This document shows positions 7,470 to 51,400 of a stretch of DNA of 64,000 nucleotides, piece after piece (the stretch's first letter is position 1; each line of letters begins with the position of its first letter). The position numbers and the translations under genes were made by a program. The stretch covers positions 4,481,442 to 4,545,441 of the forward strand of contig NC_087379.1 in the NCBI RefSeq assembly GCF_963675165.1, written 5' to 3'. Below the pieces are notes generated by a model. It saw nothing but the letters and a program-made list of their open reading frames with translations. It made no database searches and was not told the DNA's origin. Source of the stretch: Halichondria panicea. Its lineage: Eukaryota > Porifera > Demospongiae > Suberitida > Halichondriidae.

Positions 7470-7516
7470 AATTACATGTTCCTACATTTTACTGCTTTTC
7501 AGGAACGTACACTCAC

Positions 7517-9229
7517 TTTTTTTCAAGAATTTCAATGTGGGTTTTTTCCTCCCAGCATATCAGGTTGTGATACTTTCTTTTATAGTTTCCTCTTGAAAGC
7601 TTTTCTTGAATGTATCTTTCGTCTAACTCTTCCATAATTCTCTCCTCGAATTTCTCTTTACTTGCAGCATACTCGGCTTCATGTTCTTGATGTGAATAAT
7701 TGGGCTGGCTGGTAATCTGTGGTCTGCTCATCGGCAAGAGGGTATAGTGTGTAAGCCATGTGCAGTACCAGTGCTTTTTAAGTAAGTTGAAGATTATTCA
7801 AAGTTGAATGTTCTCACAATAACAAGCAACTAAACCACAAAGCTGACTAGATCTAGGTGGCTGTCACACCGTTGTGGTTTAGTGGCTTGTTATTGTGAGT
7901 ATCATATTTACTTGATTAAACGCCCTCCTTGAATAAACGGCCATCTCGTTTAAACTCCCAGGGTAAAAGCTCTGTCTTTGTCAATAAACTCCCATCTTAA
8001 ATAATCGCCCATGTATGGGGCATGGCACTGTGGGTGGAACTGAAATAGCACGTGGAACCAGTTGCAAGCGTGGCAGCATAGAATAAAAATACTTTTTTAT
8101 GATGCATCGATGGCAGAGAGAGAGATACCGACACAGAGGGCACTCCTATGACTTAAATTTAAGCTGAGAAATAGATTTAAGCTGAGACAGCAACCCAAGA
8201 AGAGCACAATAACTGCTTCTGTGCAAGAGTTTTGGAGGAGACATAACAATAAACGCCCTCCTGGATTAAACGCCCCCTCTAAAGGCTTCGATCTGAAATA
8301 AACGCCCGGGCGTTTAATCAAGTAAATACGGTACTCATTTCAACATTCAACTTTGAATGACCGTCAACCTACTTGAATGTAGGGAAACCTGGGTTTTCTT
8401 CAGGAAATTGAACACCAGGTGGTTGAACAGTTCCAGGAGGCTGATAATATCCCATACTAGGATAGAAACACTGTAGCTGCAGAGATGATGTGTACAGTGA
8501 TAGGTAAATTCTGAGTAGAGACTCGGTGTAGTGTACACATTAAATGTTATTCATAGGCTTTACTGGGAACAAACAGTTCCAATAAAATCTAGTACATGTA
8601 GTTCATGCATTGGGGCATCCCCAGGGGATTAGTATTAACTCTATAGAATGCAGAGGCTGTTGTCCCACAACAAGTATGAATGCACAGTCAATTTGTCAAC
8701 AGATGTTTCCAGGTACCACTTACTTGGCTTAATGGCTGTTGATAGTGACTGGGCCACTGTTGCCAAGTTGGAACACTTGACTTACTTGTTTGCGGATTCA
8801 GTTGACTTCTATCCGGCTCTATATAAATCAATTACTGAGTCATGTATTATTGTATAAAGGCACAAAGCTATACTCAAACCTACCTTTTCGTAAAGATGTC
8901 AACAAATTATTGAAACGCATATGCTCTTCTCTATTATGAGCATAAGTACACATTTCCAGTCTGCAATTTTTGCCACCGCTACACATTGCAATACCACCCT
9001 TAAGTCTTTGAATGAATTTTGTGCTCTTTATGGGAAACTGACGAATTGAAGGAATGAGTTTCGTTCCATTCCACTGAACATATTCTTTGTGTCCTGTGTC
9101 TGAGAAGCTGTGGCCTTGTTTATCTTCGCATTTGTAACCCAGCAATGCTTGAATACGTTCATTTTTCGCTAGACACTTCTTGCACACAAATCCTTCTTGT
9201 GCTTTATTCATGCCAGCTCTCGTAGCCAT
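7517..9229 (-). pseudogene. HELZ-like CCCH zinc-finger gene, 5' fragment, copy 1 (exon interrupted)
   Basis: Exon 1 (9229 to 8884) opens with MATRAGMNKAQ and carries CxxC (CKKC). It then has a CCCH-type finger, C-x5-C-x4-C-x3-H, in CSGGKNCRLEMCTYAH, followed by REEHMRFN as in HELZ/HELZ2 proteins. It ends at a good donor (AAAAG|gtaggt). The last visible exon ends at 7517 with KLSRGNYKRKYHNLICWEEK, which resembles the conserved segment just before the helicase core of MOV10/HELZ proteins. No helicase motifs follow; the gene is cut at the duplication edge. The middle exon (GYYQPPG, about 8400-8473) is split from the last one by the inserted element at about 7773-8395 and has small indels relative to copy 2. 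The phase between exon 1 and the next exon does not reconcile, so a small exon may be missing. Confidence 0.6.
7773..8395. mobile_element. Nested foldback/MITE insertion, present only in copy 1
   Basis: Copy 2 joins the flanking sequences directly at about 31490-31500. The outer arms are 'attcaaagttgaatgtt' (about 7794) and 'aacattcaactttgaat' (about 8342). Inside is a palindrome, caataacaagcaactaaacc inverted near 7877-7905. Nested within is a third element with 'tttacttgattaaacgccc' at about 7908, inverted as 'gggcgtttaatcaagtaaat' ending near 8330. All of it is non-coding. Confidence 0.75.
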
Positions 9230-9867
9230 TTCTGGTGAGGGTTTTCTTCGGAATTAGACAACCTTCTGTATCATGAAATTAAAATCATATCTATAGAGAT
9301 CTAATTCTACTTGGACGTCTAGATCTAGTCTGAAAATAGATGTCTACATAAACTCACCGTCGACGCCACGTCAGATGACACATTAATCTCAAGGTATTAG
9401 AATGATCTATATAAATCTACTGCCATGCCAGTATAATTATATAGATCTAGATACTGACAGGAGCAAATGAGGCTCCTGATACTGGCTATTAGATCTTTAG
9501 AATAGTCAGATCTGTATACGTTATAATTGTGTCATATGAACTAGAATTTATAGTAGCCACAATAGCCTGAAGGTATGTACGTACGTACGTACGTATATAA
9601 ATAAATAGAGATGTAGATAAATAATTAATAGATCTAGATCTAGCAGATAATACCTTTATACAGTAGATAAAACGTTACCTTATAGAGCTGCTGTGAAGTG
9701 GAAATGGAAAGGTAACATCTGGAACTTAACTATAGCTATAGATATATATATTACCTGTACCTGCACCTGATAATTCACTTACAAGGTCAAGAATTACAAA
9801 TTATATCGTGACGAGTAGAACTGGTAAAGGATCACCCATGTTTAAAACGAGAAGTTGAGCATTCCTT

Positions 9868-10071
9868 TCACCTCCTTGTCTTCTCAGCTCTGTACAGGAG
9901 GTAAATGAAGCCATTTTTTCTACAAAAGACTTGCCTCATGTCTAGCAAAGAAATGGGACCAATCATATCATATAGCTCCACCATGTCTAGGTTATGCTGC
10001 CGCTTGACGTTCTCGCTCCTCCGCTCGGCTATCAATGCATACGTGGTGCAAAATCGAGCCATGGCCATGCC
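9868..10071 (-). CDS. Conserved small ORF/exon of unknown function, copy 1
   Basis: A 67-codon frame runs from an acceptor-like ttgctttag at 10072-10080 to a TGA at 9868. It starts MAMARFCTTYALIAERRSEN if the first ATG is used, contains ELYDMIGPISLL and ends in a basic tail. In copy 2 (32904-33107) the frame is intact with one amino-acid difference, although neighbouring non-coding DNA has indels. I do not recognise the family. It could be an internal exon, since aaggag|gtgaaa near its end could act as a donor. An extra last exon of NCKAP1 is phase-compatible, but a closer and better terminal exon exists at 13266. Confidence 0.4.
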   Translation of the reverse strand, partial: GMAMARFCTTYALIAERRSENVKRQHNLDMVELYDMIGPISLLDMRQVFCRKNGFIYLLYRAEKTRR

Positions 10072-10814
10072 CTAAAGCAACCACCTAATTAGTATGAACT
10101 TGGCCAACTCAGAACTTAATCTCTGTATAATACCCTCAACTTTATTATTTTTTTAACTCTTAGTATTGTCTGGAATTTAATATCGCGTGCATGCATGCTG
10201 CAAAAAGGCTGTTAATATTTTGCAAAAATTAAATCCGCAAAAACTTTTCTAACGAAAGTTTTTATACCCTCGAAATAATTATACCCGCTATATATGAAGT
10301 TAAAAAAGCGATTTGCGGCTGGTGATGCACCCCAATGCTTTTAATATAAAAGTTTTAGCCATGCATATGCCAAGTGTTTGGTCCAGTTTAGAATGGTGAC
10401 GACATGTGTTGTGATGATCCTCTAATCGCTTCCATTGTCACTTTTGTGTGCTCCCAGCGATCCACTCTAAACGATCAGCGACAGTGTTGAAGGCTATAGT
10501 ACATCGTTTGCTATACTAAAGCTTAAGACATTACAGTATATGTGTTGCATCAAACTATATAATAGCCCCTAAAACTAATTGCAGACTTCTCTGACTGGGG
10601 GTTCAGCTTGATATCTTCCAATGGACACAACATGTTTGGGTCGTGCAAGTGATATGTTATATACTGTAAGTGTTGTACCTGATAGAGAACGATCATGATG
10701 CACACCTATTTGACCAGCTCACTCACTGTTGCCACACTGTTTAATATTATTGTGCAAAATGATTTTTCTATATAAATCTAGCTAAAGCAATTGCCAAACC
10801 TATAGCTAGCCATA

Positions 10815-11074
10815 TTATTTTGCAATTTCATAAATCGTAATCCAAGAAAACATGACTAGATCTAGCTAGAATTTAAGGATTGAATCAGTGGACCAAAGTG
10901 GCCAACTTGAATATTTAGAATTTTAGCACTGTGACTGATCCAAAGTGAAGTGATTGACGCTCTAGATGGTTTGGCAATTGCTAATCCATGATCTCTAGAA
11001 CTGAAACCTAGAAACTCCTAGCTTTACACAGACACGCCCTTATCTTGCTGCGCATGCGCACCCAAGGCACAATT
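10815..11074 (+). repeat. Diverged family A right half, next to the TRIM-NHL promoter
   Basis: 'atccaagaaaacatgactag', 'tacacagacac' and the terminus 'gcgcatgcgcacccaaggca' match the right halves of the family A copies at 7310-7469 and 30170-30335. It ends six bases before the TATA box of the TRIM-NHL-like gene. It is also present in copy 2 (about 33840-34098), so it predates the duplication. Confidence 0.55.
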
Positions 11075-11079
11075 AGTGG

Positions 11080-11088
11080 TATAAAAGG
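11080..11088 (+). promoter_or_regulatory. TATA box of TRIM-NHL-like gene, copy 1
   Basis: tataaaagg lies 111 bp upstream of the ATG at 11199, and the same box lies at 34104-34112 in copy 2. It supports transcription starting here and hence a protein that begins with the coiled coil rather than a RING finger. Confidence 0.6.
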
Positions 11089-11198
11089 ACCCAGACTAGA
11101 TACATGAATGCCCAATTTTCTTTTCTCGACTCATCTCTCATGCATGCATTGTGAGTTTAATAGTAGTTTGATGTGCATGACCTGTATCTAACTACTAT

Positions 11199-12814
11199 AT
11201 GAGTATTGCTAATGTGAATTCCTCACAGACGCAATCCATGATGGAGAATCACCACAACTATGACCTGCTTACCAAGCACAGAGAACAGCTTGTCTCTGGT
11301 CTCAAACCAGCTGAGGAGAAGCTGGACAGTATACAACGAGCACTGAAGTACTTTGACACAAGGGCTAAGGAACTTAACGATCAGAGGGCTGCAATTGAAG
11401 TTGATATCCACAAAGAGATAGAAGAACAACATCAGCTGTTAAACGAAGAACAGCAAAACTTGTGGGAGAGCTAGATATGCTGACTCAGCAAAAACTGAAG
11501 GATCTGGTGGCACAGACTCAAGTAAAACTATCCGTATGTTTGGAATATGCTGAGGAGTGTCTCAAAGGCACTGACAGTGGTGAAGTATGCGAGCATATTT
11601 CCACTATTCAACCGGAGCCAGAGATAAACGCTATCATGGAGCTAGTTACTAAAGGAAAAGAACCTCTCCAAGCAGCATGTCGAGATTTCCTAGAAATTGA
11701 GCATGGTGGTTCGTTCAGCTTCGAGAACAGCCTCACGACAGGAGATGGTCTGAAAACTGCTGTAACTGGAGAAATAAAAGTTGTATCCTTCCAAGCAATG
11801 ACCAAGAATAACGAAAAATTCAAAGGTATACTGGACCTCAAAGCTGAACTTGTGCATATCGAGACAAAAAAGAAATTGAGATGTGAAGTGGTTAAGCAGC
11901 AAAATGGTAAACACGAGATCAACTATCACCCTATGAAACGAGGAAAGCATGAACTACATATCACTGTCAATGGGGACGCAGTACGAGGCAGTCCATTCCT
12001 AATATCTGTAACCTTGGGGAAATTAGCTAAGCCTTCCCGAGTTATATACGGTTTGGATGGACCACGAGGCACTGTCTTCAATAATAAGGGACAGTTGATC
12101 GTTATTGAAGGTCATATTACACAAACTGTCTCTGTATTTACACCAGAGGGTGAGAAAATACAAACGTTTGGACAGCTGAATGGTGCATTTGGAGTAACGG
12201 TGGATAAAGACGACAACATCTATGTAGTGGAGAGTACTAATCCTAATCATCGTATAAACAAGTTCTCATCGAATGGAGAGCTTGTGGCAGCAGTTGACAG
12301 TACCACGTGCACTGAATCTATATGCTTGTTTGGTATCTGTTATAACAGAATAGAGAACAACTTGTATGTGCTTAGCTTTCCTACGATACAAGTTCTCTCT
12401 ACTGAACTAAAGTTCATACGATGTTTTGGCATATCTGACAATGGAAACGAATCATTTAATAGTGCAGCATATGGAACCAAATCATTTAATAGTGCAGCAT
12501 TTGATAGCGCCAACAATCTCTATGTGACTAAACGTAATCGAGTACTAGTCTTCAATGCTGAACGTCAATTTTTGAGAGCATTCTCACAAAAGCATGATAG
12601 TCAGGACCAGGATCGAGATCTCTTTGCCATTGCCATCGACAGCAGTGACACAGTGTACGTGAGCAGCAATTGTGTTGTGATTTTGTTCACATCTGAGGGA
12701 GACTACATCACCACTTTTGGTGTAGGTGGGTGGGAAATTTACGGACTCTCTATTGATTGTAATGACGCAGTTGTTGTATCTGATTGTAGCAACGGCCGAC
12801 TGCAGAAATTTTAA
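11199..12814 (+). pseudogene. TRIM-NHL-like (coiled coil-filamin-NHL) gene, copy 1, frameshifted
   Basis: It is a single-exon gene. The N-terminus (MSIANVNSSQ) is followed at once by HHNYDLL, which resembles the end of a B-box. A coiled coil of about 130 residues follows, then a filamin-type Ig repeat ending in RGSPFLISVT, then NHL beta-propeller repeats (GTVFNNKGQLIVIEG, GAFGVTVDKDDNIYVVES and later blades) to the stop at 12814. RING and B-box 1 are absent, so E3 ligase activity is not expected from this locus. A single missing A near 11446-11449, relative to copy 2, shifts the frame: frame one stops at 11474 and the rest continues from 11462 in another frame. The family acts in ubiquitination and RNA regulation; any role here is inference. 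It converges on NCKAP1 copy 1, about 450 bp away. Confidence 0.82.
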
Positions 12815-13265
12815 ACAAGCCTAGAACTGAAAAGTGACTGTTATTGCTGTTATTGCTTATAATTATAGTTTACCCATAATTATAGTTTACCCATGCATGC
12901 ATTTTGTTGTTGTCTCCTATCAGTTACATGTAGCAGCACGAAGAAATTGTATAATGATGAAGTTATTCTCTTAATTATTCAATTACACAAGACCACAGGC
13001 AAATAGAACAAAGTAGCCTCAACTTCCCTAACAGCATAATATACAATTGAATGACATGATGTACTGTGCTCATCACAAAATTCAATGTACAAGGTAGTAT
13101 ACAATACAATGTAGGTGGCTGGCTATTGACTGATTGATTCAGTCACATAATTATATATAGCTGTTATAAATTTTCTAACCTTCTGCACAATTTCAAATGT
13201 ATATGATAGTCATTAGTTCTATGAAACACAACTAATATTATAACATAACTTGACATTCATTAATT

Positions 13266-13315
13266 CTAAAATGGAGTTTCACTGTCTCTTTGCTTTCGAT
13301 TTGTAGTCTAAAGGG

Positions 13316-13369
<54 letters not shown>

Positions 13370-16300
13370 CGTGCGTGCGTGTGAAACATGCAGAGGGAGA
13401 ACTATTGCACCGGTACTGTACGAGGTTTTGCAAAATATTTTCAACATTAAAAAGGAGAGCATTCCCCATTATGTGATTTACCACAGATAATGTTACAGAT
13501 ATGCGGGTACTACAGTAGGTTAAGCGATATAAAAAAACGCTCAACCCCTTCAACACATTTTTTCTGGTGTTGCAAAACCCTATATAGACTAGTAGTAAAT
13601 GCCTTACCGCTGGATTTTTGTAGACGGTGCTGTAGGCATCTCTCAAGAGAGCGTACGGGAAACAAGACTCCAGGAGATCCCTGGTGAGGAAGGGGGACTC
13701 CTCCACAATCTGCAAGAGTATGAGACAAGTAATTTAACATAATAACGCTACACTCAGGAGTAATAACCACTATCACTAAATCTGACCTGACACTGACCTA
13801 CAAAACACACCACAGTTACATCAAAACAGTTGTTATTAATTTTAGTTACAAGCCATGAATTCAATGGAGAAAGATTCTGAAGAGACTGCAACAGCCTTCA
13901 ATGTGGGTCAAACTAGCCATAACTCGAGAAAAAAGCGGAAGATAACAATCTGACATAGAGTCAAACTAAAGTGACTGTGTCTACTTACCAGGTCTAGAAG
14001 AAGGTAAATGGCCTCTCTTGCTTTGGGTGCATCCTTTTCTTTTTCCGTCTCTTTGGCAAGTGTCATGATACGGGAGCTGGTGAACTGGAGGGCGGAACAT
14101 TCAGTTACAAACCAAAACCAAAACCAACAATACAAACATAATATATCAGCAGTGAATGGTCACAATTAAGTTTATGATGCCCAAAAATTGATACAGTTTT
14201 GCGCATGTATATAGAGAGCACATGTACATACACTACAAAAAATGTGATTAACATGAAAATAACTGAACAGCTAGTCAGATTTCATAGTTAGTGTCGCACA
14301 CTTACCACTAAGAACTCCTTCATTCTGTCCTTCTGTTCCTTATCCCCATAGTAAGCAAAGATTGCTCCAGGCAATGACGTGATGGCGACAGCCAGACAGT
14401 GAGCGTTGTTCTCATGTCCCTCAAAAAATGGTAGGTAGGTGGAGTCTGGCTTAAAGGCGAGGTCGGGCAAAGTCACACCCAGGAACACCATGTACAGGCT
14501 CCAAATCATGTGGTCTTCTTTAGACTTGTCTGCATGGGGAGCAATAAATTATTTTGCTAAGCTAGATCTACTGCACGTAATACACACACGTATGATGTTA
14601 AATTGTGTACATGTAGTTTAAGTTGTATTATACATGTGTACACGAGATATTTAAGTGAGAAAATGTGAACTGTGAACTATGTGATGTCCAACTCACCACA
14701 CTGTGATCTGAGCGCACTATAGAGAAGGGGGTCCACATCACAAGGCACACCAGCTGCAATCGCCATTTGATCAGCAACCTAATGGTGAGACAATGAGCAG
14801 CTAATAATAAATACATGTACTTGTATAGGTAGGTACCTCTGTAAGGGCGCAACAAAAGGACTAGCCTCGTCCTGAGGCCAATTCGAAAACGGAATGAGAA
14901 AATAGGCCTGCATGGTTTCCTTTCATTCAGATTCAAATGACTATTATTACTTCTGTGCCATGAACAACTTAGCAGGAACTGTGTTAGGCATGTTTTATCA
15001 TGATGTGCTGCCATGTATCTTATCACAGTAATAATCATGTGTTGATTGTTGTACAGTTCAGATTTTGTCTGACTTACTTCCCACCTTTTGTTCTATGAAC
15101 AACTTAGCAGGAACTGTGTTAGGCATGTTTTATCCTGATGTGCTCTTATCAGTAATAATCATGTGTTGATATTGTACAGTTTAGAATTTTTCACTTTCCA
15201 CCTTTTGTTGTGGATTAGCCCCCTGGGATCTGACTGATTTCTAGAATATTTTGCAGGGTAAAAAACCTTTGGGAATGAGCCAAATCAGCAGAAAATTTGA
15301 CCCAACTATTGCGTTCTGGAAAGGATGTATTTACTAGTTAGGTTTTGCAGATTTAATTGTTACGAATTGATCAACCCTCGCAAAGTTCGCAAATGTTTAA
15401 TGCTCGCAAAACATTCGGTATACATACCTTTGTTATAGTTGAATTCAGTACTAGTAATAGTTGCATTTCATTTTTGAATTAATGTTTGAGTCTGAAACAA
15501 TAGGAACAGCCTACATGTAAATACTTATGGTTGTGAGAAGAATCCAGCAAACTGGGCCTAGTAGCACTTTATATTTGTCTACTAGAAGCTTATAGTAGCC
15601 CAAACATCTGCATGACGATCTACCCTCTGACACTGGAAGCAGCGCTAGCATGCTCCCTGTCTGCAATATCTTTGCTATGATCTAGCTAGTTACATGTATA
15701 GCTCCAGCATGCTCCCTGTCTGCAATATCTTTGCTATGATCTAGCTAGTTACATGTATAGCTCCAGCATGCTCCCTGTCAGCAGTATCTTTGCTTAGCTA
15801 CATGTACAGCTCCAGTAATGGTGGGTATTACATGTACATAAGACAGTTCACGCTCAGACACTTTTCGTTTCTTTAGAGAAAAATAGGCCTGAGGACAAGG
15901 TTACAAGCCCTTGCTCTAAGGAGAAATGGTAACTACACTATGTATCGTCAAACTTGGTTTGGTAAAGATCATCACACACACTTTCAATATACACGTACTG
16001 TATAGACTTACAGTGGAGGTCTTGTCCGGTAGGTTCTGTTTGAAGTCAACAATGGAGCTGAGTATGAAGGGCACTCGTTGGGAGAGCACATTATTGAGGG
16101 CTACCAGGGTCAGTTTACGAAATGCCATGATGATGCCCACAATAACCGTACGGGCCAGTAGATCCTCAGAACCTAGGCTCCGGAAAAGTACGTAAAGGGT
16201 AGGCTGTGCTAACTATTGCTTCAACTTACTCTTGACTTTCTTGATGACTTCATAGTATATCTCGGGTTTGTCTCTATTGCTATGCAGTGCGTGGAGCGAG

Positions 16301-19300
16301 TCCTGGTTGGCAACCACGAGCTTTTTGATCTCTTTCACCTGACCACTCACCTATTAGCATGTGTGGAGAGAGTAGCCATGCATTAGAGCATTTCTACGTA
16401 CATGTACATGTACTCTTGTCACCCTTTGGATTAGTGCCTAGATACTAATTGGCCGCACACAGTGAAGCACGTCATCTTTCAGGTATAATAGTGTGTATGG
16501 TAAGCAATGCAGTACAGTGCAATACCCACTCACCTGATCCATCAACTTCTCTCCTAGGAAGCGAATACCGTACGGACCAATCACAGCAGCTAGAGCCTCA
16601 AGCTCTGTGTGTGTGTGTGTGTGTGGGTGTGTGGGTGGGGGGAGCAAAGAGGGCAGAACTCAACACCTTAAAAAGGACTTAGACACTATTTTTACATGGC
16701 ATGCGCATAGCATAACTATTTCAGGAGCAGGGTTATACATGTACATTAGAGGTCCTACATGTATCATTACTAGCCTACATGTAGGTTCAACATTGCTGAT
16801 TTCCCTAAGGAGCCCGCCTTCTGCATAGTCATCATGCAGTTCTCTTATCAGTAATAATCAACATTGCTGTGCAGTTAAGATTTTGACACATTAATTTTGT
16901 CCAGTTATCATACTTTTCAGGCAATAAATAATTCAGGACCAGGGTTAATTAGAGGTCCTACATGTACATGTATGAAGTATTTCATACAGCACTATAAGTA
17001 TACATGCTTTAGAGTACATGTAGGTTCAACGTCTAGTTGGGAGCAATGCAAATATTCTGAAATGGTATTCACCAAAATACGTACCTCTAAGGTCAGTGAA
17101 TTCCTCGGCTTTGAATGCATGGACACCTTTGCTGACAAAGCACCTCCGGCTCCTGCTGTAGCAAATACCACCAGCTGCCACCCTCTTCAGCAGTGTGTTG
17201 GTGTACCTGTGAGCAATACAGCAAGCACACATTGTATTTATACATGTACATAAAAGATCATTATACTCGTCCTATTATGGGCTGCATAACTATATGAAGC
17301 ATTGTTGTAAATTCATATGTACATATAGAGACATAATTTTTATAATGGTACTTGTTATTGAGATTCAATAAGGGCTCAACGAGCACAAACAGACTATTCA
17401 GTGATACATAATTCAGTGTCCAAAAACAACACAAGTGTTCCTTTAAACACACACGTACCATCCGGTGTATGCTGATGCTATGGTAGACTCCCCCTTGCTG
17501 TCCAGAGGCTGGGTCTCCTGCAGTAGCACTGCCGTCAGCACGCGAGTCATATCTATGTTCACGTAGAGCTCTAGTGTTCGCAGAGACGCCATGTACGACT
17601 CTATACGAGCCAAGACCTCTGACGGACGAGCTATCTCCTGTGTCTCTGAGTTATAGGAGAGCATCGAGACTACGTGCCTGTGTGTGGGGGGGAAGGGGGT
17701 GGTCAGTAAATAGAAGCTGTATATAATATAGTTACACGATTAAGCAACTCCAAAGTGTTGAAACGATCGTCAGAATATTTCTTATGTACGCATCTAGACA
17801 CAATTAAAGCATAGTTGCAAACATTAACCGTTAAGTGAGTATTCATCTAACACAAGAGACTCACTTCATGAAGAGGTCCTCGAGATGTGAGACGAGGTAC
17901 TCCCTCGGTACGAACGTGTGCTCCCAGGCCGTGATGGAGGGGAAGCAGTTGACGGAGAACGATAGGCCCACCAAAGTCTGCAGTACGCTGTCCACTCTAA
18001 GGGGAGAGAAGGAACAGGGTGGGGTGTAGGCATGTACGAGATAGGATATTTTGATCAGTAGTAGGTTTAAGTATTAAAGCTCGTGTATGAATCAATGAAA
18101 TTCCTGCGGGAACACATAAATCTCCACATTTATTCATCATGCATTGTTACCTGACAGTCTCCTCCCTGGTTCTGCGATAGCTCTCTTCTCCCGGCTGTGA
18201 TGGAGTTTGGACGGCCACAGCTTTTTTCTTGGTCAGCTTGTGAGCATGCGTCTGCAATAATTAATCATTACCAGATAAAAGAGGTTTAGAGTGTCCAATG
18301 ACATAGAATATACCATCTCATGATAAAGTATTTCTTTGTGCCGCAGTTTCAATGGGACTATACCAGCCTCGACTCAATTTAATTGTACGATATAAAAAGA
18401 TGCGACACGACAGCTACTCGCATAAATAGCATTGGTTAGTTATCGAGCATGTACATCCAATCAAGAGGGCAGAGTATGTGTAGATAAACGAACAGAATAT
18501 CAATAATTTTAGTACATGTGTTACAACTATATACCCGGGGATTTTCAATGCATGCAACGCCCAAGTACATACTACAGCACTGACTGTGTGTGTCACTCAC
18601 CTGGTTGTAGTAAGAGCTGGCATTGGCTACCTTTAGCTGGTCGTCGAGGTTCATCCTATCTGAGGACAGCTGGCCCAACACCAACTTGACCTCCTTGGCT
18701 ATCAGCTCCAGAAAGTGGTTGACTGAATTCACAGCCCGATCACCAATGTTGATACGCTGTCAGTGTGCATAATTATAAGTGTATTATTAAATTCGAAAAG
18801 GTAAAAATAACAAATAAACTGTCTGAGGAGGCATGCAGGCACTTCCTCTTAAAGGAGGTTCTATGAAGTTACCCAAAATGTAATATCTTCATACACACAA
18901 TACAAAAATGCACATGTACATTGCGAATGCCGCTAACTGCTCACCTCCTCCGGACAAAAGGGGCTGGTTGAGTTGAGGAACTCCCCACGGATGACCGGGA
19001 ACGCTATGATGTAGCGGACTTGAGACAGGTTCTTCATGCAACGATTGAACTCATTCTCAAATTGACGATAGAAAAAGCTGTGGAGGGAATATACGTATTG
19101 TGCATCAATATACATGTACTGACACTACCTGTATAGGGTGGTTAATCAGCTACAGTTAACAATAATGTCTCTCCTTTGCAGTAAGGTTGTCCTTAGACTA
19201 GTGTTTAAAGTACGGTGCCTATACTTTGGAGGTTCCATAAAATTGTACATATACGTTCTATTGTATGCGCATTGTCTGTGAGCTTAGGCAAAAACACGAC

Positions 19301-20529
19301 ACAGTACAACCTACAAGCAACTCCATGCATGCTCACTTTGACACACTATTTTAACAACTGTGGTGAACCCAGAACCTTACCACATGAAGGAGAGGTCCGT
19401 CTGCTCGATGAGCAGCTCCTGAAAGTTGTCCACCATCTTGGAGTGCACCACCACCCCATTCATGGCCGGGGCAAGGCTTCCGTTCTCGTTGTCCTTGAGA
19501 CTGTGTGTCGTACGTGGGGGGGAGGTAGCATGAAAGAGTAGTCACACACAAACACACCAAACTGTATCATGAGCAGCATATGGCTTCCAACTTCAAAAGC
19601 GAGAGCAAACAATTCAGGATGAACAAAATCAAACAAAATTTAAGTGCATGTATGCACTCCATATAAAATGGACCACAATACCTTTTCACTATACCTCAGC
19701 TCACAGAACTAACCACTCCACACACAACACCTCACACTCCATACCTAACACTCACCTGAGGGCAGCTTTGTTGACAGAGGTGAGACACTGAAATCGGAAC
19801 CAGTCTAGTCTGAGAGCCTGGAAGTCAAACTCAGGTCTCTCCGCGTTCTCTTTGCCCTGGAGGCGTGCCAGAGTGTCCACGAACGAGGTCATCAAGAGGG
19901 ACTCCTCCTCTGGACACACTTGGATACCCTATAGATATATATACAAGTATAAAAAAGCCGTAAGTGGACATATTATGTTCTAGACAAATAAAAAAAAAAT
20001 AGCAGTACACATGCACATGTACATAGCCAACAAATGTATGCATGACATGCTTGCTCACCATGACAACATTCCTCATAAGCTGTGCGTCAAAGCCTGACAT
20101 GTACCTCAGGTAGTAGTTGAGTATAACGCGATGGTGCTTGTTAACCAGAGCTAAAGTGAGGGTTTAACAAATAGTAACTCTAGTTTTGAGTCATTTTAAT
20201 CTAGAAACGTATTGCGTCTTGGTACTACATACATGTACTGTAAAAGAAGCCTTTGAGGGTAATATCTTAGAACTACGTATGTTCTACTGATAAAATAGCA
20301 TATAATGCACAATTTAAATTTCTGGTCGTAGTTCCGGAAGTACATAAAAAACCATTAAATGGGTACTTTTCAGTTGTGCAATGTTGAAGAGCAGCTCTGG
20401 GAGTGCCGAGTCACTGTAGTCGTCCGGATTGGGTCTGTGTTTGCTCTTAGGGGGTGCCATGTTGTTGTGCTTGAACAGCCAGAACACCTCGTCTCTGGCC
20501 AGCGTCAGTGCAGTAATCACCGTCACTGC
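13266..20529 (-). CDS. NCKAP1: NCKAP1 (Nap1/HEM), 5'-truncated duplicate with exons 10-27
   Basis: Exons by homology and GT-AG sites (minus strand): 20367-20529, 20059-20150, 19756-19928, 19381-19500, 18945-19077, 18601-18756, 18151-18251, 17865-17996, 17459-17677, 17085-17206, 16534-16604, 16230-16350, 16012-16172, 14697-14778, 14306-14529, 13989-14084, 13608-13709 and 13266-13307 (stop). All are open and in phase. They correspond to about residue 373 to the C-terminus of a protein of about 1,141 residues. Diagnostic blocks are [34 protein letters not shown] and [20 protein letters not shown]. Exons 1-9 are absent upstream, where only the duplicated part of intron 9 and spacer occur. Differences from the full gene are few (Gln/Leu at the end of exon 10, Ser/Asn in exon 13, Arg/Cys in exon 14, Asn/Lys in exon 26). 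With no obvious promoter or start, it may be untranscribed or make an N-terminally truncated protein. Confidence 0.9.
13319..13383. repeat. (GT)n/(GCGT)n microsatellite in the last NCKAP1 intron, copy 1
   Basis: On the gene strand this is a (CA)n tract running into ccctccctttag, the acceptor of the last exon. It is shorter than in copy 2 (36350-36418). Frames reading VCVCVC or HTHTHT here are artefacts. Confidence 0.95.
14862..15892. mobile_element. hAT-like element relic filling NCKAP1 intron 22 (copy 1)
   Basis: The left end, tagcctcgtcctgaggcc, pairs with the right end, ggcctgaggacaagg. An 'aaaataggcct' motif repeats near both ends. It resembles the element at 4806-5839. It occupies about 1.03 kb of a 1.23-kb intron. 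Inside are a near-perfect tandem duplication (about 14960-15090 and 15097-15215, sharing 'aacttagcaggaactgtgtt'), a family M repeat (15240-15425) and a 59-bp minisatellite. The identical insertion at 37892-38922 predates the duplication. Confidence 0.6.
15648..15812 (+). repeat. 59-bp minisatellite, ~2.8 units, copy 1
   Basis: Units start at gcatgctccctg at 15648, 15707 and 15766, giving an exact 59-bp period. The first two units are nearly identical and the third is degenerate. The array lies within NCKAP1 intron 22. Confidence 0.92.
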
Positions 20530-23801: not shown

Positions 23802-23809
23802 TATAAATA
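23802..23809 (+). promoter_or_regulatory. TATA box of cysteine-rich gene 1
   Basis: tataaata lies 68 bp upstream of the ATG. Equivalent boxes occur at matching distances in genes 2 (46070) and 3 (51383). Confidence 0.6.
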
Positions 23810-23876
23810 TGGCATGGGTGCACTCAAGCTGTATACACACAACTGAAGACCGCTTATCAGTACTAAAACTCAAGCA

Positions 23877-30778: not shown

Positions 30779-30780
30779 TA

Positions 30781-36296: not shown

Positions 36297-36348
36297 CTAA
36301 AATGGAGTTTCACTGTCTCTTTGCTTTCGATTTGTAGTCTAAAGGGAG

Positions 36349-36409
<61 letters not shown>

Positions 36410-39400: not shown

Positions 39401-42400
39401 AGTAGCCATGCATTAGAGCATTTCTACGTACATGTACATGTACTCTTGTCACCCTTTGGATTAGTGCCTAGATACTAATTGGCCGCACACAGTGAAGCAC
39501 GTCATCTTTCAGGTATAATAGTGTGTATGGTAAGCAATGCAGTACAGTGCAATACCCACTCACCTGATCCATCAACTTCTCTCCTAGGAAGCGAATACCG
39601 TACGGACCAATCACAGCAGCTAGAGCCTCAAGCTCTGTGTGTGTGTGTGTGTGTGGGTGTGTGGGTGGGGGGAGCAAAGAGGGCAGAACTCAACACCTTA
39701 AAAAGGACTTAGACACTATTTTTACATGGCATGCGCATAGCATAACTATTTCAGGAGCAGGGTTATACATGTACATTAGAGGTCCTACATGTATCATTAC
39801 TAGCCTACATGTAGGTTCAACATTGCTGATTTCCCTAAGGAGCCCGCCTTCTGCATAGTCATCATGCAGTTCTCTTATCAGTAATAATCAACATTGCTGT
39901 GCAGTTAAGATTTTGACACATTAATTTTGTCCAGTTATCATACTTTTCAGGCAATAAATAATTCAGGACCAGGGTTAATTAGAGGTCCTACATGTACATG
40001 TATGAAGTATTTCATACAGCACTATAAGTATACATGCTTTAGAGTACATGTAGGTTCAACGTCTAGTTGGGAGCAATGCAAATATTCTGAAATGGTATTC
40101 ACCAAAATACGTACCTCTAAGGTCAGTGAATTCCTCGGCTTTGAATGCATGGACACCTTTGCTGACAAAGCACCTCCGGCTCCTGCTGTAGCAAATACCA
40201 CCAGCTGCCACCCTCTTCAGCAGTGTGTTGGTGTACCTGTGAGCAATACAGCAAGCACACATTGTATTTATACATGTACATAAAAGATCATTATACTCGT
40301 CCTATTATGGGCTGCATAACTATATGAAGCATTGTTGTAAATTCATATGTACATATAGAGACATAATTTTTATAATGGTACTTGTTATTGAGATTCAATA
40401 AGGGCTCAACGAGCACAAACAGACTATTCAGTGATACATAATTCAGTGTCCAAAAACAACACAAGTGTTCCTTTAAACACACACGTACCATCCGGTGTAT
40501 GCTGATGCTATGGTAGACTCCCCCTTGCTGTCCAGAGGCTGGGTCTCCTGCAGTAGCACTGCCGTCAGCACGCGAGTCATATCTATGTTCACGTAGAGCT
40601 CTAGTGTTCGCAGAGACGCCATGTACGACTCTATACGAGCCAAGACCTCTGACGGACGAGCTATCTCCTGTGTCTCTGAGTTATAGGAGAGCATCGAGAC
40701 TACGTGCCTGTGTGTGGGGGGGAAGGGGGTGGTCAGTAAATAGAAGCTGTATATAATATAGTTACACGATTAAGCAACTCCAAAGTGTTGAAACGATCGT
40801 CAGAATATTTCTTATGTACGCATCTAGACACAATTAAAGCATAGTTGCAAACATTAACCGTTAAGTGAGTATTCATCTAACACAAGAGACTCACTTCATG
40901 AAGAGGTCCTCGAGATGTGAGACGAGGTACTCCCTCGGTACGAACGTGTGCTCCCAGGCCGTGATGGAGGGGAAGCAGTTGACGGAGAACGATAGGCCCA
41001 CCAAAGTCTGCAGTACGCTGTCCACTCTAAGGGGAGAGAAGGAACAGGGTGGGGTGTAGGCATGTACGAGATAGGATATTTTGATCAGTAGTAGGTTTAA
41101 GTATTAAAGCTCGTGTATGAATCAATGAAATTCCTGCGGGAACACATAAATCTCCACATTTATTCATCATGCATTGTTACCTGACAGTCTCCTCCCTGGT
41201 TCTGCGATAGCTCTCTTCTCCCGGCTGTGATGGAGTTTGGACGGCCACAGCTTTTTTCTTGGTCAGCTTGTGAGCATGCGTCTGCAATAATTAATCATTA
41301 CCAGATAAAAGAGGTTTAGAGTGTCCAATGACATAGAATATACCATCTCATGATAAAGTATTTCTTTGTGCCGCAGTTTCAATGGGACTATACCAGCCTC
41401 GACTCAATTTAATTGTACGATATAAAAAGATGCGACACGACAGCTACTCGCATAAATAGCATTGGTTAGTTATCAAGCATACATTTCTAGCACTAAATGT
41501 ACATTCAATCAAGAGGGCAGAGTATGTGTAGATAAACGAACAGAATATCAATAATTTTAGTACATGTGTTACAACTATATACCCGGAGATTTTCAGTGCA
41601 TGCAACGCCCAGGTACATACTACAGCACTGACTGTGTGTGTCACTCACCTGGTTGTAGTAAGAGCTGGCATTGGCAACCTTTAGCTGGTCGTCGAGGTTC
41701 ATCCTATCTGAGGACAGCTGGCCCAACACCAACTTGACCTCCTTGGCTATCAGCTCCAGAAAGTGGTTGACTGAATTCACAGCCCGATCACCAATGTTGA
41801 TACGCTGTCAGTGTGCATAATTATAAGTGTATTATTAAATTCGAAAAGGTAAAAATAACAAATAAACTGTCTGAGGAGGCATGCAGGCACTTCCTCTTAA
41901 AGGAGGTTCTATGAAGTTACCCAAAATGTAATATCTTCATACACACAATACTTTATCACAAAAAAATGCACATGTACATTGCGAACGCCGCTAACTGCTC
42001 ACCTCCTCCGGACAAAAGGGGCTGGTTGAGTTAAGGAACTCCCCACAGATGACCGGGAACGCTATGATGTAGCGGACTTGAGACAGGTTCTTCATGCAAC
42101 GATTGAACTCATTCTCAAATTGACGATAGAAAAAGCTGTGGAGGGAATATACGTATTGTGCATCAATATACATGTACTGACACTACCTGTATAGGGTGGT
42201 TAATCAGCTACAGTTAACAATAATGTCTCTCCTTTGCAGTAAGGTTGTCCTTAGACTAGTGTTTAAAGTACGGTGCCTATACTTTGGAGGTTCCATAAAA
42301 TTGTACATATACGTTCTATTGTATGCGCATTGTCTGTGAGCTTAGGCAAAAACACGACACAGTACAACCTACAAGCAACTCCATGCATGCTCACTTTGAC

Positions 42401-45400
42401 ACACTATTTTAACAACTGTGGTGAACCCAGAACCTTACCACATGAAGGAGAGGTCCGTCTGCTCGATGAGCAGCTCCTGAAAGTTGTCCACCATCTTGGA
42501 GTGCACCACCACCCCATTCATGGCCGGGGCAAGGTTTCCGTTCTCGTTGTCCTTGAGACTGTGTGTCGTACGTGGGGGGGAGGTAGCATGAAAGAGTAGT
42601 CACACACAAATACACCAAACTGTATCATGAGCAGCATATGGCTTCCAAATTCAAAAGCGAGAGCAAACAATTCAGGATGAACAAAATCAAACAAAATTTA
42701 AGTGCATGTATGCACTCCATATAAAATGGACCACAATACCTTTTCACTATACCTCAGCTCACAGAACTAACCACTCCACACACAACACCTCACACCCCAT
42801 ACCTAACACTCACCTGAGGGCAGCTTTGTTGACAGAGGTGAGACACTGAAATCGAAACCAGTCTAGTCTGAGAGCCTGGAAGTCAAACTCAGGTCTCTCC
42901 GCGTTTTCTTTGCCCTGGAGGCGTGCCAGAGTGTCCACGAACGAGGTCATCAAGAGGGACTCCTCCTCTGGACACACTTGGATACCCTATAGATATATAT
43001 ACAAGTATAAAAAAGCCGTAAGTGGACATATTATGTTCTAGACAAATAAAAAAAAATAGCAGTACACATGCACATGTACATAGCCAACAAATGTATGCAT
43101 GACATGCTTGCTCACCATGACAACATTCCTCATAAGCTGTGCGTCAAAGCCTGACATGTACCTCAGGTAGTAGTTGAGTATAACGCGATGGTGCTTGTTA
43201 ACCAGAGCTAAAGTGAGGGTTTAACAAATAGTAACTCTAGTTTTGAGTCATTTTAATCTAGAAACGTATTGCGTCTTGGTACTACATACATGTACTGTAA
43301 AAGAAGCCTTTGAGGGTAATATCTTAGAACTACGTATGTTCTACTGATAAAATAGCATATAATGCACAATTTAAATTTCTGGTCGTAGTTCCGGAAGTAC
43401 ATAAAAAACCATTAAATGGGTACTTTTCAGTAGTGCAATGTTGAAGAGCAGCTCTGGGAGTGCCGAGTCACTGTAGTCGTCCGGATTGGGTCTGTGTTTG
43501 CTCTTAGGGGGTGCCATGTTGTTGTGCTTGAACAGCCAGAACACCTCGTCTCTGGCCAGCGTCAGTGCAGTAATCACCGTCACTGCCTGTGTGTGTGTAT
43601 GTGTAGTATTATTCGGATAAAGTTTATTCCACCATAAAATTGTGTCACTCCTTTGTACCATACTATTTCGTGCATGGCTAAAGCTATAACATCCGGAATT
43701 CACAGTTGTAATGACACATACAGACACTTGTCTATTGTGTAAGCTTCTGAGGTAATTTCAATAGTCAAATCAAACACACCATACACATTACCATGCCCGA
43801 TTCACCTGACCACCGTATCACTATGACTATAAATGGGCTCATTTGTGCCACAGCGATAAATAAACTTCAAGGGGCAAAGCTCATCTTATTAAATACACTA
43901 ATTCACTCGCTAGGTTGATATCTTTTGCCATAAACACAAATTGCTAAATGAATGGTATACGATGTGAGTGTGTGTGTGATGTGCTTTGAAATAATATTAG
44001 TCCCCACTATCAAAAGTAAAAATTCCCAAAAACGGGTGTGACTATAATGTTGACAATTAGTATTTGACACCAAATAGGAAGTCCCAAAAATTGGCATACA
44101 TGTATGCATGAGCTTTAGACCCAACAAAAACACATTCCTAATGCAATCCCACGACCTCAGTATAATTATGTGACATTAAAGTACTTACTAGTAAAGTAGG
44201 CCCATCAAACGTTTCACAAATGACACTACTATAATGAACACTGTCACACATTAGTTGACACCCATGCATGCACGGTATAAGGAGTTACTACTATTGCACC
44301 AAACCTATAATTTTATCAGTCTAGTACTCGAACGTGCATGCTGCAATCCTGCATGATTGGTGGCAATGAAACAATAAACAATTGTTACAAACTTAAGGTA
44401 CAAACCAGAGGAGGTTGAACGCACATCATCATGGCGCACCCATTCTACACTGTATGTGATAACAGGAGGATAATTATGAGGAGATGGAGCATCATGTGAT
44501 AACAGCAGCATAATTATGAGGAGATGGAGCGTCTTACTACACAGATTCCTTATCGTCCTACTGTATACAAACATTGCCATAATTATAATATGTTAAACCG
44601 CTAAGTGCTGCTAAGATTATTCATTGTACTCACTATTATTAGATCAAACGTTAAAGAATACATTTGGGGTCAAAGGTGAAATGCATAAGCTAGATCAGTG
44701 TAGTACAAAAACTGAACACCAAAAAGAAAGGTAGTCCAACCTCCTTTGCTGAAAGTCATAACTTTTACATGCTCACACAAAAAAGTCTGAAAGTGTTGAA
44801 AACTTTCTTCAGCTATATGTGGCACCTGATAAGTCCTCGTGCCTATTTCATAACAATTTGGCTCTCAATAGTCTCAGTATGTAGCATCCGTCTTGGAAAA
44901 CACACAAACAATTCTCGGTTGTTGGGAAAGAGCTAGAGGTACATAGCGTTTTTTTCGTTTTAGAAGCCTATGTCATAGGCTATGTACTAAGACAGCCTAG
45001 CTAAGTAGTGCTCTGGATCACACATGTCCTCAAGTATGGAAATGAAGTGTAAGTTAATCAGCAGTTTTGTTATACTGACAGTAAGACAATTGTTTGTCTC
45101 CTAAACCGTTTCCAGCCTGGATTTTCTTTCCACGTTGGAGTAGACAGCCTCAAGTAAAACCGGGGCAACACGGATGGTTAGTCGAGGTCACTTCCGTTTC
45201 CAATCTCTCTTTTCCTTTATCTTTGCTATAACGCAACACTATTATGGCATCCAAGTAAGCAGGCTCAGATGTCACTAACAAACAAACCAACAGACTAGTA
45301 TACCCGCTGGCCGCGGCACGGCCTCCCTCGGGTAACTAGACCTAAATCAGTGTAATGAAAAAGCTGGAGTATATGCATGCACGGTAGTCCAACCTTCTTT

Positions 45401-48400
45401 ACCTTTACATGTTATACTAAAAATATGTCGAAAAGTTTATTCATTATGTAACATTTGTTTTGGAATCCTTTTAGCAGGTAATTTAGGAAGGTGCGACTAC
45501 TACTAGACCGCCTCTGGCTATACCTGCTGCGTCTCTTACACGTACCTCTTGCAGCAATAAACAGTGGAAGTTCTAAACATCGAGGTGCCTATTGGATGTA
45601 TTCAATTGGATTCTTAAAATTAAGAGAAAACGTGATAAAGCTTGCATGATGGTGGACGCCTGTCGTCTAGCCTCCTCTGGGTAAAAACATTATCATCACT
45701 AGAACACAAGTACAAATTGCACTATGGTACTAATTACCCTACATTTCCCAAACAACACCAAGAGCAACACTCACTACAGAACACAGACATAAGCCGAAAG
45801 TCCCAATAATTGTTGATTATACAAAAATGTATTCTTAAATAGCTAAAATTTCACCAGTAGTCAAGTAGGCGCTACTGAAAATTCCCAAATGTTTTCAGAA
45901 CACACACATAAGCCGAAAGTCCCAATAATTGTTGATTATACAAAAATGTATTCTTAAATAGCTAGAATTTCACCAGTAGTCAAGTAGGCGCTACTGAAAA
46001 TTCCCAAATGTTTTTCATAATTATACCTGATAAAAGGAATGCACTCACACTACATGTATAAGTGAAGGCTATAAAAATGGCATGGATGCACTCAAGCTGT
46101 ATACACACAACTGAAGACCGCTTATCAGTACTACTACTAAAGCAATGCAATTTGTTGTTCTTTCCTCATTTCTGTTTATGCTGGGCATAGCCCACGCAGA
46201 GATTGCCATGTCTCCAACAGATACGGCTATCTCCACTATCAACAAGGCTGCACAACTAGCATCAACCATGACAACTACCGACACTCGAGCCAGGAGATCC
46301 GTAAATCTCAGACGACTATCCAATAAAGAGTTCAATCAATGTCAAACAATAGCTAATAGGGTTGGCTGTGAGACAGGCCTTCAGGAGGACCTTTACACTC
46401 TGGCACTGGAATGCCAGCAGCAAGACACCGCTACTGTAGCTCAGTTTATTTGTGGAATCAATAATGAGAATGGTCTATACTGCGGTCAAGGATTGGAGAT
46501 AAGCCAACAGTTTGAAGAAGAAACATCGTCCAATTGCCGATCGCTTTCATCTTGCTCATCCAGCTGTCAAAACTCGATCACCCGTATTCGAGACCAACTA
46601 GGCTGTTGTTCTGGTCACTGGACAAATTCGTTAGCTGGCAGCCAAACAAACCTTGATGGGGCATTCTGGTCAGTTTGTGGTGTGAGCACAGGTGAACTGT
46701 GCCCTATCCCAACATACAACTCCACCGTTACATCCCGATTTTGCACACTAGCCGAAACCAATCGAATCCTCTTCTCTCGCCGATGCATGCAGAGTACATC
46801 AGGAATAGCAGTCGAAACACTTGCTAACACTACTGGCTGTGGAGGAGTAGCCAAGATCCATGTTGAAATATGCAGTGTCAATTCTAACGGAGATTTCTGC
46901 AGTCTAAAAACTGATCAAAGTACGGTAACAAACATGATTGAAAACTGTGCACAAAACGTAGTCTCTGGAACTGGTTGTTCTTCCGTATGCAGATCTTCCA
47001 TGATAGCACTTCGTAACGAGTTTGGATGCTGTATCAACAGTCTTTTCAATGGCACTACCATTCGAGTTGCTCCTATATCAGGCGCAAATCAAGTACTTCA
47101 ATTCTTCACCAACAGTTTCTGGTCGAGATGCAATGTTTCTCCTCCTGGTATGTGTGAGAGCCCTCTGTTGTTGCCCGAGATTAGAGACAATGGAGGAGTC
47201 AAGACCAGTGGTGTGATCAGCATAGTGCTGATAGTTGCACTAGCTGCTTTGTTTCTTTGAGACACTAAAACATACAGTGTAATATAACTATGTAAGAACT
47301 ACACACTTTATGTAAGAAAAATTAGTGCTGTGACTTTATAAATATTATTGTGATTAACTGATATCATGATTTGTTCATTCGACCACTAGCATATCTGTTT
47401 CTGAACAGGCACACAAATACACGCAGCTAAAGCAGGTCTCTGAAATTTTGCTCTTTCTATATGCCATGACTAATATAGGAGGATTGCACTACACAGTATA
47501 TGTCACAAGCATGCATAGTATAAGTACTATTAGAACACCTAGCCAAGATTAAGTGCTTTAAACTGTGTGTCGAGGGTGAACTCGAGGTTAACGTGGCGCA
47601 AGAGGCACAGCCGAGTGTGTATTATGTATTGAGAGTCCATTCGAGTGCACCAGCATTTAAAAATACGCGATATTGGCTAAGTGTGTTCTAAGGATTTAGT
47701 GCTGTCATGTGATCTCTAGCAGCCTGCCATTTGTACAGCTTGACCAGTGTTCTGTTCTACCTGGCTACATCTGAATCCATTTCTCAATTTACTTGTAAAG
47801 CACACTTAATTACGTGTGTGCATTAACAACTTAAAGCACACTTAAAGTGTTATTTGAAGCATGGTCAGATGACTAGGTGGAGATCATGAGATGAGCACTG
47901 TCAGTAATATATACTTGTAATAATTATTGTTCCATTCCAATATTACAAGCTAGGTTTATTCTGATTCAATAATTATTGTGAATTGAAAATACTGGATTGG
48001 CTCTGGATGTGATGCAACCATGCAGAGCTGGTACGCGGCCAACTATACCTCAAGATGGTTTATGGAAAGCAAATTAATGTGTGACTAGTCCCCAACCTTA
48101 TAATTTATATAGCTTCAAAAACAAAATATGATATTTGTTTATGCGTTAAATATCGTGATTCGAATGGAAATGCACCAGGTCCCAATTGGGTGATACAAAT
48201 ATACACGACATGATAGCTGCATGCATGCTCACATAAATAGCATTAGTTAGCACGGCAACCTACATTCCATTAAGAGCAACCAACTATGCATATAACAGTA
48301 AGCTATTCAGGGGGTACAATGCAGGTTTTTTGACTAATGGCGTGCTTCTAAAAGCCACGTTTTTTAGCTTTTGTTCACTTTTTGCCGCTTTAATATCAAA

Positions 48401-51400
48401 ATCCTAAAAAATGAAAGCACCGCGGGTGCTGATGCCTTGGTGGAGGTGCCAAAGCTACATAACATACACACATTGATTTATATCATTAATTTTGCTGCAA
48501 GCAACCGAAACTTGCATATCTATAGCAACTAGAGCACTAAAGTGCTAACCTTCGGCTCTTGACAGGATCTACAGCTACAGGTGTATAGCAACCAAAAGAG
48601 TGTTATACAATGCTGGCTAAGCAGCAAGAGGCAACATGTATAGTACATGAATTGTAGACAAGACTGAATATTAGACTCACAGCAAACTTACAAAGGCAGC
48701 AAAGAAGCCTGGAGTCTCTAATTTATAGCTCCTGTGGGGCATGCTCTGGGGCAGAAATAAGTCAGTAAAGAGGTATTTTAGCTTTCTACTTTAGTGACCC
48801 TGTTCCCTTGTTTCTGGTACGGGATCACCTCAGGTGTAAATACGTAGTTTACCTCGAATAAAGGCTGCGTGTAATTAGCTAGCTAGCTGCCAACGTGCAA
48901 GTTCAAGCTTCCATACCAAAACATTTTGTCAAATGTATGTAAAAAATATGTTAAAGTATGTTAAAGTTGTCCTCAAATATTTAATCTACAAGTATACAAA
49001 TGCACTAAAAAGTGAGACAAAAACACACAATTCGTACTTCAAACGCTAAAAAAGAAGGAATTTTACCTAAAAATAATTTTAGTGTGCTCTCTATTGTCTA
49101 ATCTAGCTATTACTCTTTCCAATGATACCCCACATGCCATTTCTACATCAGCTGGATACAGTGTTTTTCAGGCTTGAGTGATGACAGTTTTACCATTGAC
49201 TGCCCCATACTTTACATTATAAATTTTTGTGGGAAGGGTGTTTACCTTTAGTATGGTGCTGTCTAGCCTTGAGACCACGCCGATTAAAATACGGCCTGGT
49301 CCTCTATTGCATGGGTGATAGTGCACATGCACAAACTGAGTTACCCAGAATCTGGGTAACTCGTATACTTTATAGTAAACCTTTGTAAAATTATACCGTA
49401 AACTAGTTTGTTTACTAGTTTCTTTCCGTATTATTTTTAACAAATACTTGTCTCCTGTGAAGCTGTGGCTTATGCTCTCTATTGCGTTGTCAAAAAGGCT
49501 CTGGCCCTCTATGGTGTTGTCGAGAAAGCTTGCACACTAGTCTGAAGCCAGAAGAAGTTCTCGTTTGTACAAAAACCAAGTTTTGTCTACAATAGAAAGA
49601 CAAGAGCGCAGTTATAGTCCAAATAACGAGCAAGAAACTTACATTGTGAGTGTTGTTGGCCCTGTCTTAAGGTATTCATACTCTGTCTCAGCTTTTTCTC
49701 TTTTGCAGATTCAAAGAAGTATAATTATTGTCGATTTGATTGCTATTCTAGGATTACGAAGATGTGAATGACATCAAACATCAAAACCACAAGTATAATA
49801 ATAGAACATTTGTTGCGTTAATTTATAAGAGCTGTAAGTACTTAAAGCAAGCATTCTTGGTATTTATAGGTATTTATATGCACCTAAGTACCTTCCAGAG
49901 GGCCAAATGAAGAGATATCCGTTGTAAAAGTTCATACAAGCTAAGAGTTTAAACGGTGGTATCTAAAAATACACAGAGAGCTATAGCTGCAACTGGCTTG
50001 ACTTTTTCCGCTTCGTTTGGCCCTGCCCTACCTTTCTTTAATTGGATAGAGCCCCCAGTTAAACATTTTCTGGTTTATCCACACACTAAAATTTGACCCA
50101 AGAAAACAACTTGTTTGATGCTCCATAAAACATAGTGATAATGATATTCATACTTTATATCTTTCGCATAGGTGAAACACAATACCCTAACCTTAACATA
50201 GCACCTGTAAGGATTTTTCTAATTATGGTTTTTATTGATAGACCCAACAGGATATGCCTGATAACGCACAGTAAAATAGTGCTGACCGTGCATAAAATGC
50301 TTGCTGAGTCAACACAAATGAGTTGCCTCTATAATGATATTCATGCCTGTCATATGATTTTGTACCACGGACAAACAAAGTACAGTACAACAGGATGCAC
50401 TGTAACATGGCAAGTACAGAGTGCAGCACAACAGATATGAGCTGTACCATGACAAGTACACAGTACAGTACAACAGATATGAGCTGTACCATGACCAGGA
50501 CAAAGTGAAGTACAATAGGTATGTTACCATGACAAGTACAGAAGACTCTCGCTAATTCGGCTCTCCGAATTACGGTCACCTCGATGTAATGGTCGCTTTG
50601 TTTAGCACGATTGCTAGCTTGATAAAAAACTTGCCCTAAATTGCAGCCATCTCACTATTCCATATACTGCTTAGCTCAAACCAGATTTAAAATGTAATTT
50701 AACGGTTGGATATGACGTTTTAGGTGTGGTTCGGCAGATTACACTTCAATAGAGAGCATAATGATTCAGACAGAACCGCTATTTAACGGCGGTTACTTTT
50801 GAAATGCAGCCACCTCTCTATTTACAGATAAACTGCATTGTCCCAAGGGTGACCGAATTAACGAGAGTCTGTCTATACTGTAGTCCAAAGTGCAAGTGTG
50901 CTGAACCAGAGGAGGTACGGCACGAAGTGATGTCAAAATACGTAGAACTTCTATTGCGATATATTTATAACCACATAAAATCTAAATGAAGCCATAATTG
51001 ACCACATAACTTCCGGGGCCGAACTCAACACAAATAAATTAGTACGGAACACAAGTATATAGCAAGGTATAGTTTCTAAATGGCTGAACACAGTGACAAA
51101 AATAAATAGTAGATATCTCGTCAGTTCACTCACTCCGATACCTATCGACTATAAATAGAACCAAATTATTATCATAATTATGGGCAGTAGGAATGAGAGG
51201 GCCTGATGTGCGACACTATAGAATGATATAATGTACAGTTACACATTGATATCATAATTACCTCAGAGAGGGAAGGCCATGAAATCACTACAGCAAGGAA
51301 CACAGTCTAATATTCCATGGAGATAATCTCTAACAGGAAGTACACCCACACACTTAACAACATTCACACCCTTTGACCAGTCTATAAAAGTTGAAAAAAA

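Follow-up and report, generated by a model that had tools for sequence, protein, structure and literature searches.

The window analysed here, a stretch of 64,000 nucleotides of Halichondria panicea DNA, contains a long direct repeat, and a filamin-NHL gene, the 3' half of NCKAP1 and a cysteine-rich protein gene lie in each of its two copies (Table 1). In a self-BLAST of the window the dominant match pairs 8,392–21,589 with 31,493–44,677 (13,337 aligned columns, 96.85% identity), and a longest match of this kind excludes chance as the origin of the repeat. It is flanked by weaker collinear matches at 7,491–7,791/31,201–31,513, 22,732–23,231/45,372–46,027 and 23,757–26,229/46,025–48,466. Global alignment gave the same picture, with 7,491–26,229 equivalent to 31,201–48,466 in the same orientation and short collinear traces beyond the repeat ends. 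The first-pass annotation had described a direct repeat with a period of about 23 kb and copy-specific insertions and deletions, and both are borne out: the offsets from copy 1 to copy 2 are 22.3–23.7 kb, order and orientation are alike, and the indels are seen in the alignment of the copies. Its unit of about 19 kb needs correction, as homology extends over 18.7 kb in copy 1 and 17.3 kb in copy 2, and about 1.1 kb within the repeat (21.6–22.7 kb in copy 1) is without alignment. The long, adjacent direct repeat of high identity expected of a true tandem segmental duplication is thus present in the sequence as given. A 119-bp tandem duplication at 45,777–46,014, listed in copy 2 only, directly precedes the cysteine-rich gene. 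The left window edge (1,544–2,112) also matches the right flank of copy 2 (49,688–50,194) over 588 columns at 71% identity, which is possibly the trace of an older unit (a copy 0) or another dispersed repeat. The Rfam search gave 0 matches and ARAGORN, run with the bacterial code, found 0 genes.

Table 1. Features of the 64-kb window; strata are given in copy 1 coordinates with per-segment substitutions.
Feature	Coordinates	Strand	Remarks
Copy 1 of direct repeat	7491..26229	+	self-BLAST and alignment; weak collinear traces to 26,913
Copy 2 of direct repeat	31201..48466	+	self-BLAST and alignment; weak collinear traces to 49,673
Filamin-NHL (TRIM-NHL-like) gene, copy 1	11181..12814	+	Pfam Filamin and NHL; frameshift near 11,445
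Filamin-NHL gene, copy 2	34204..35845	+	Pfam Filamin; frameshift near 34,667, stop at 35,471
5'-truncated NCKAP1 copy, 3' coding segments only	13614..20532	-	open in segments compared
NCKAP1 gene	36650..58522	-	tblastn, Pfam Nckap1, PDB 3p8c_B
Cysteine-rich protein gene, copy 1	23877..25022	+	
Cysteine-rich protein gene, copy 2	46145..47260	+	inside large NCKAP1 intron, opposite strand
Third cysteine-rich protein gene	51451..52566	+	same NCKAP1 intron as copy 2 gene
Spacer	26914..31200	.	1,091- and 1,587-bp runs without match elsewhere in window; remainder dispersed repeats
DNA-transposon-like element	30779..31195	.	ends TACAGTAGACTCTCG / CGAGAGTCTACTG; adjoins copy 2 start
Low-divergence inner block, copy 1	9641..21405	+	0.81% substitutions outside identical tract
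Low-divergence inner block, copy 2	32677..44459	+	per-segment substitutions
4,102-bp identical tract, copy 1 side	14343..18444	+	equals 37,373-41,474
4,102-bp identical tract, copy 2 side	37373..41474	+	equals 14,343-18,444
Stratum, outer	7,491-7,768		8.7%
Stratum, outer	8,392-9,108		9.6%
Stratum, transition	9,109-9,640		2.8%
Stratum, inner block left of exact tract	9,641-14,342		0.81%
Stratum, exact tract	14,343-18,444		0/4,102
Stratum, inner block right of exact tract	18,445-21,405		0.81%
Stratum, transition	21,406-21,587		5.9%
Stratum	21,588-22,731		unalignable
Stratum, outer	22,732-23,231		4.4%
Stratum, outer	23,757-25,107		6.9%
Stratum, outer	25,189-26,229		9.0%; unalignable again beyond

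The NCKAP1 gene was mapped by tblastn (E up to 0.01) with a human NCKAP1 protein sequence as the query. Eight 5' coding segments (query residues 2–368) lie at 58,522–53,454 on the minus strand and have no second match within the 64-kb window at this threshold, while the 3' segments (residues 367–1,122) are found at 43,589–36,650 and again at 20,532–13,614. Since the 5' segments are single and the 3' segments occur in both copies, only copy 2, from whose 3' segments they are separated by a large intron, is continuous with the whole gene. This confirms the earlier view that both copies hold the 3' half of NCKAP1 and that the 5' part lies only beyond copy 2; the suggestion that copy 2 is parental for NCKAP1 fits as well, copy 2 being the one joined to the 5' coding segments. 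The listed segments share 26–73% identity with the human query, and about 26 residues (311–337 of the query) and other short stretches were not located by tblastn. At the level of sequence matching, the segments along the protein, the Pfam Nckap1 match (PF09735, E 1.4e-57) and the match to PDB chain 3p8c_B (E 2.7e-8) confirm the gene as a recognisably animal NCKAP1 (Nck-associated protein 1). The exon 10 acceptor region reads identically in both copies. Compared codon by codon over 16 hand-trimmed segments, the copies differ by 6 synonymous and 4 nonsynonymous changes over 246 and 900 sites, respectively, none of these 10 lies inside the identical tract, and the segments contain no stop and no frameshift. 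With dS near 0.024 (from 6 synonymous changes) and an uncorrected dN/dS of about 0.18, some constraint at least seems to act on the NCKAP1 exons in both copies; as a test of allele against dead copy, this constraint gave no decision on only 10 coding differences.

The filamin-NHL gene of each copy had been called TRIM-NHL. It has Filamin and NHL matches in copy 1 and a Filamin match in copy 2; a Pfam search of 25.3–35.2 kb in its three plus frames brought up neither a RING nor a B-box domain. The reading frame is broken by one frameshift in copy 1 and by one frameshift and one stop in copy 2, and these breaks may be real or base-level errors. Between the copies there are 5 synonymous and 10 nonsynonymous changes, which likewise did not decide between an allele and a dead copy. 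For the ORF at 8,840–9,253 (minus strand), the label HELZ-like found no support. The helicase and CCCH domains of HELZ are not seen there, as the ORF has no Pfam hit at 0.001; when the cut-off was relaxed to E up to 1, the six frames of 1–9,900 yielded DUF7612 (0.027) and a CCCH zinc finger (0.079), both below threshold. Its two copies differ by 27 nonsynonymous and 4 synonymous changes, a pattern that shows no coding constraint. At the right end of the window, an ORF at 62,101–62,994 (plus strand) matches Cu-oxidase_3 (multicopper oxidase; E 1.6e-7).

A cysteine-rich gene had been reported in each copy, which holds, but a third gene at 51.45–52.57 kb had not been mentioned. All three reading frames are intact and 24 of 24 cysteine columns are kept in all of them. 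The comparison was restricted to coding-region counts, since the flanks of the third gene are not homologous and a contrast of coding region with flank would be partly trivial. In a codon alignment, dS is 0.092 between genes 1 and 2 (23 synonymous and 40 nonsynonymous changes, superseding a cruder count of 17 and 47), 0.094 between 1 and 3 and 0.041 between 2 and 3, and dN/dS is 0.53–0.66 across the three pairs. Among 81 two-state differences, 48 group copies 2 and 3, 18 group 1 and 2 and 15 group 1 and 3. Together with dS, this grouping means that copies 1 and 2 parted before 2 and 3, or that 2 and 3 were homogenised. The copy 1 gene has, near the C-terminus of its protein, a 24-bp in-frame tandem duplication (24,908–24,958) that the other two lack. 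Judged by eye from their hydrophobic ends, the proteins are apparently secreted or membrane-anchored. Pfam gave nothing at 0.001 for copy 1 and NCBIfam nothing at 0.1 for copy 2, and among solved structures no relative was credible (best E 0.71); of 24 pattern stretches in the viral contig collection, 0 were confirmed as relatives, and the structure model (mean pLDDT 34.8) is too poor for use.

The two copies are not uniformly similar. Counted as per-segment substitutions, with 7,769–8,391, 23,232–23,756, 25,108–25,188 and 26,230–26,261 omitted as wholly or partly gaps, the repeat falls into three strata, an outer one at 4.4–9.6%, an inner block at 0.81% and a centre without a single difference in 4,102 bp, with transitions of 2.8 and 5.9% in between. 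On the left, divergence changes abruptly at 9,109. If rate variation is ignored, the Poisson chance of such an exact run is about 3e-15 with the core density used initially and about 2e-13 with the inner-block rate of 0.81%. The repeat thus shows what is expected of interlocus gene conversion, a sharply bounded stretch of excess identity within copies that otherwise diverge more; alleles can show the same, and the sign is not specific. No G+C bias between the copies is seen at the differing sites (34 vs 31), which neither helps nor hurts a reading as duplication with conversion. The copies had been said to have separate histories; this stands for the old-looking edges but not for the centre, which was recently shared or homogenised, as is shown by the 4.1-kb exact tract within surroundings that differ uniformly by 0.81%.

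A largely unrelated spacer of about 4.7 kb between the copies, as described before, is indeed present. Beyond 26,913, about 62% of it (2.68 kb) matches nothing in the window and thus neither flank, while 25% matches the left flank and 10% the right flank, and these parts appear to be dispersed repeats. One short repeat family has members at 1,047–1,267, 6,197–6,438, 26,173–26,375, 28,008–28,195, 29,870–30,003 and 48,410–48,480, several of which contain GGTGCTGATGCCTCGGTGGAG or close variants. At the right end of the direct repeat, a member occupies the same place in both copies and so predates their split. An exact 21-base piece of a dispersed repeat gave 0 stretches in the viral contig collection and 1 stretch in genome contigs, in a Bacteroidaceae MAG, which was taken as a chance match. 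Copy 2 begins 6 bp past the dispersed element ending at 31,195, and the homology of copy 1 fades at 26,229–26,913. This element has a relative at 50,537–50,870, from which it was considered as the far end of copy 1; that idea was rejected on account of its terminal inverted repeats, which we take to be of DNA-transposon type.

Taken together, we lean, with somewhat better than even confidence, to a tandem segmental duplication of old date. Interlocus gene conversion would afterwards have homogenised its centre, and copy 1 would be left with a 5'-truncated NCKAP1. The strata that look old, the spacer without a match and the lack of an assembly gap weigh most in this, and we infer that the copies are truly adjacent. 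An older event would have set a second copy of the block with the filamin-NHL gene, the NCKAP1 3' half and the cysteine-rich gene beside the first, after which edges and spacer would have aged by substitutions, indels and small transposon insertions. Interlocus gene conversion would subsequently have overwritten about 11.8 kb in the centre of one copy with the sequence of the other and, in a still later round, at least 4.1 kb inside that block. The NCKAP1 of copy 1 would thereby be 5'-truncated, open in the compared segments and lacking its first exons, and NCKAP1 protein should come from the gene running through copy 2. In favour of this order are the nested strata (8.7, 9.6, 4.4, 6.9 and 9.0% outside, 0.81% on both sides of the tract, 0 of 4,102 in the centre) and the dS of 0.092 for cysteine-rich genes 1 and 2 against about 0.024 for NCKAP1, by which copies 1 and 2 of the former parted well before the 0.81% block. 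For paralogues there is nothing unusual in a synonymous distance near 9%, which between alleles would be extreme. Should the copies be paralogues, the 0.81% block must have been homogenised after the cysteine-rich split and the 4.1-kb tract later again.

Part of this evidence can be read otherwise. The mosaic divergence and the identical tract also fit two haplotypes with ancestral recombination, the apparent partial constraint on the NCKAP1 exons of both copies would suit alleles, the exact tract could be the assembler re-using the same reads, and the origin of the spacer has no explanation under a duplication with conversion either. The caution of the first-pass annotation that stitched haplotypes would give a similar picture was therefore justified, and the letters alone do not remove that reading. 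Haplotype A (1 to about 26–31 kb) and haplotype B (from about 31 kb on) may have been joined end to end, copies 1 and 2 then being alleles, which we regard as a serious possibility of distinctly less than even probability. Two overlapping haplotypes joined in tandem would yield the observed geometry, copy 1 ends before the NCKAP1 5' segments, the NCKAP1 differences lean synonymous, and of the 7 indels in the filamin-NHL coding region 5 leave the reading frame intact, so that for most of the time since they separated both copies were read as coding. Such a join would need an allelic dS of about 0.09 in the cysteine-rich genes beside a 0.81% block, that is, haplotypes about 9% apart at synonymous sites with an adjoining stretch without difference, and a large amount of haplotype-private DNA for the 2.68 kb of spacer that a simple overlap of haplotype contigs does not predict. 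The window has 0 N in 64,000 bases and hence no assembly gap between the copies to mark a false heterotype duplication. This absence is weak evidence, because gapless false duplications are described (Ko et al., PMC9516828) and the window was perhaps chosen for zero N.

A true duplication could also have arisen by unequal crossing-over between already diverged haplotypes, the strata then being an inherited allelic mosaic and later gene conversion unnecessary. This would explain at once the sharp edges, the equal 0.81% on both tract sides and the constrained NCKAP1 differences; however, no clear recombination junction could be made out among the many dispersed repeats of the junction region, and we consider this origin very improbable. 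Also very improbable in our view is a locus of polymorphic-recognition type, at which the copies would be long-lived, deeply diverged haplotypes or duplicates born from such and the cysteine-rich family nested in the NCKAP1 intron would be diversifying.

Both main readings have known counterparts. Human segmental duplications with interlocus gene conversion likewise contain kilobase tracts that are nearly or fully identical although the duplicates around them diverge more, and whole genes can be re-copied, as might be the case here; conversion events are reported with a mean of 6.26 kb, the top 10% being above 14.4 kb (PMC10172114). Unlike those, the present repeat is known from one genome record, in which allelic identity or re-use by the assembler could also account for the tract. 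False duplications are said to betray themselves by half depth, gaps between copies, discordant pairs and one-copy k-mers; the gap is most often but not always present, some duplicates being joined by unsupported sequence instead, and 4–16% falsely duplicated sequence is reported for older assemblies (Ko et al., 2022, PMC9516828). Adjacent haplotype contigs that mimic segmental duplications with the same geometry are also described (Kelley and Salzberg, 2010, PMC2864568). The adjacent direct copies, the allele-like central divergence and the one copy without exons resemble such cases, whereas the absence of N between the copies and the spacer of more than 4 kb, mostly matching neither flank, differ from them (PMC9516828, PMC2864568).

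The repeat is ordinary in kind. If the duplication is false, it would be a textbook haplotype artefact that creates a false truncated NCKAP1 gene. If it is true, the locus would be a compact case of tandem copies that keep a young centre between ageing edges, and an age taken from the core (0.81%) instead of the edges (4.4–9.6%) would be wrong by a factor of five to twelve.
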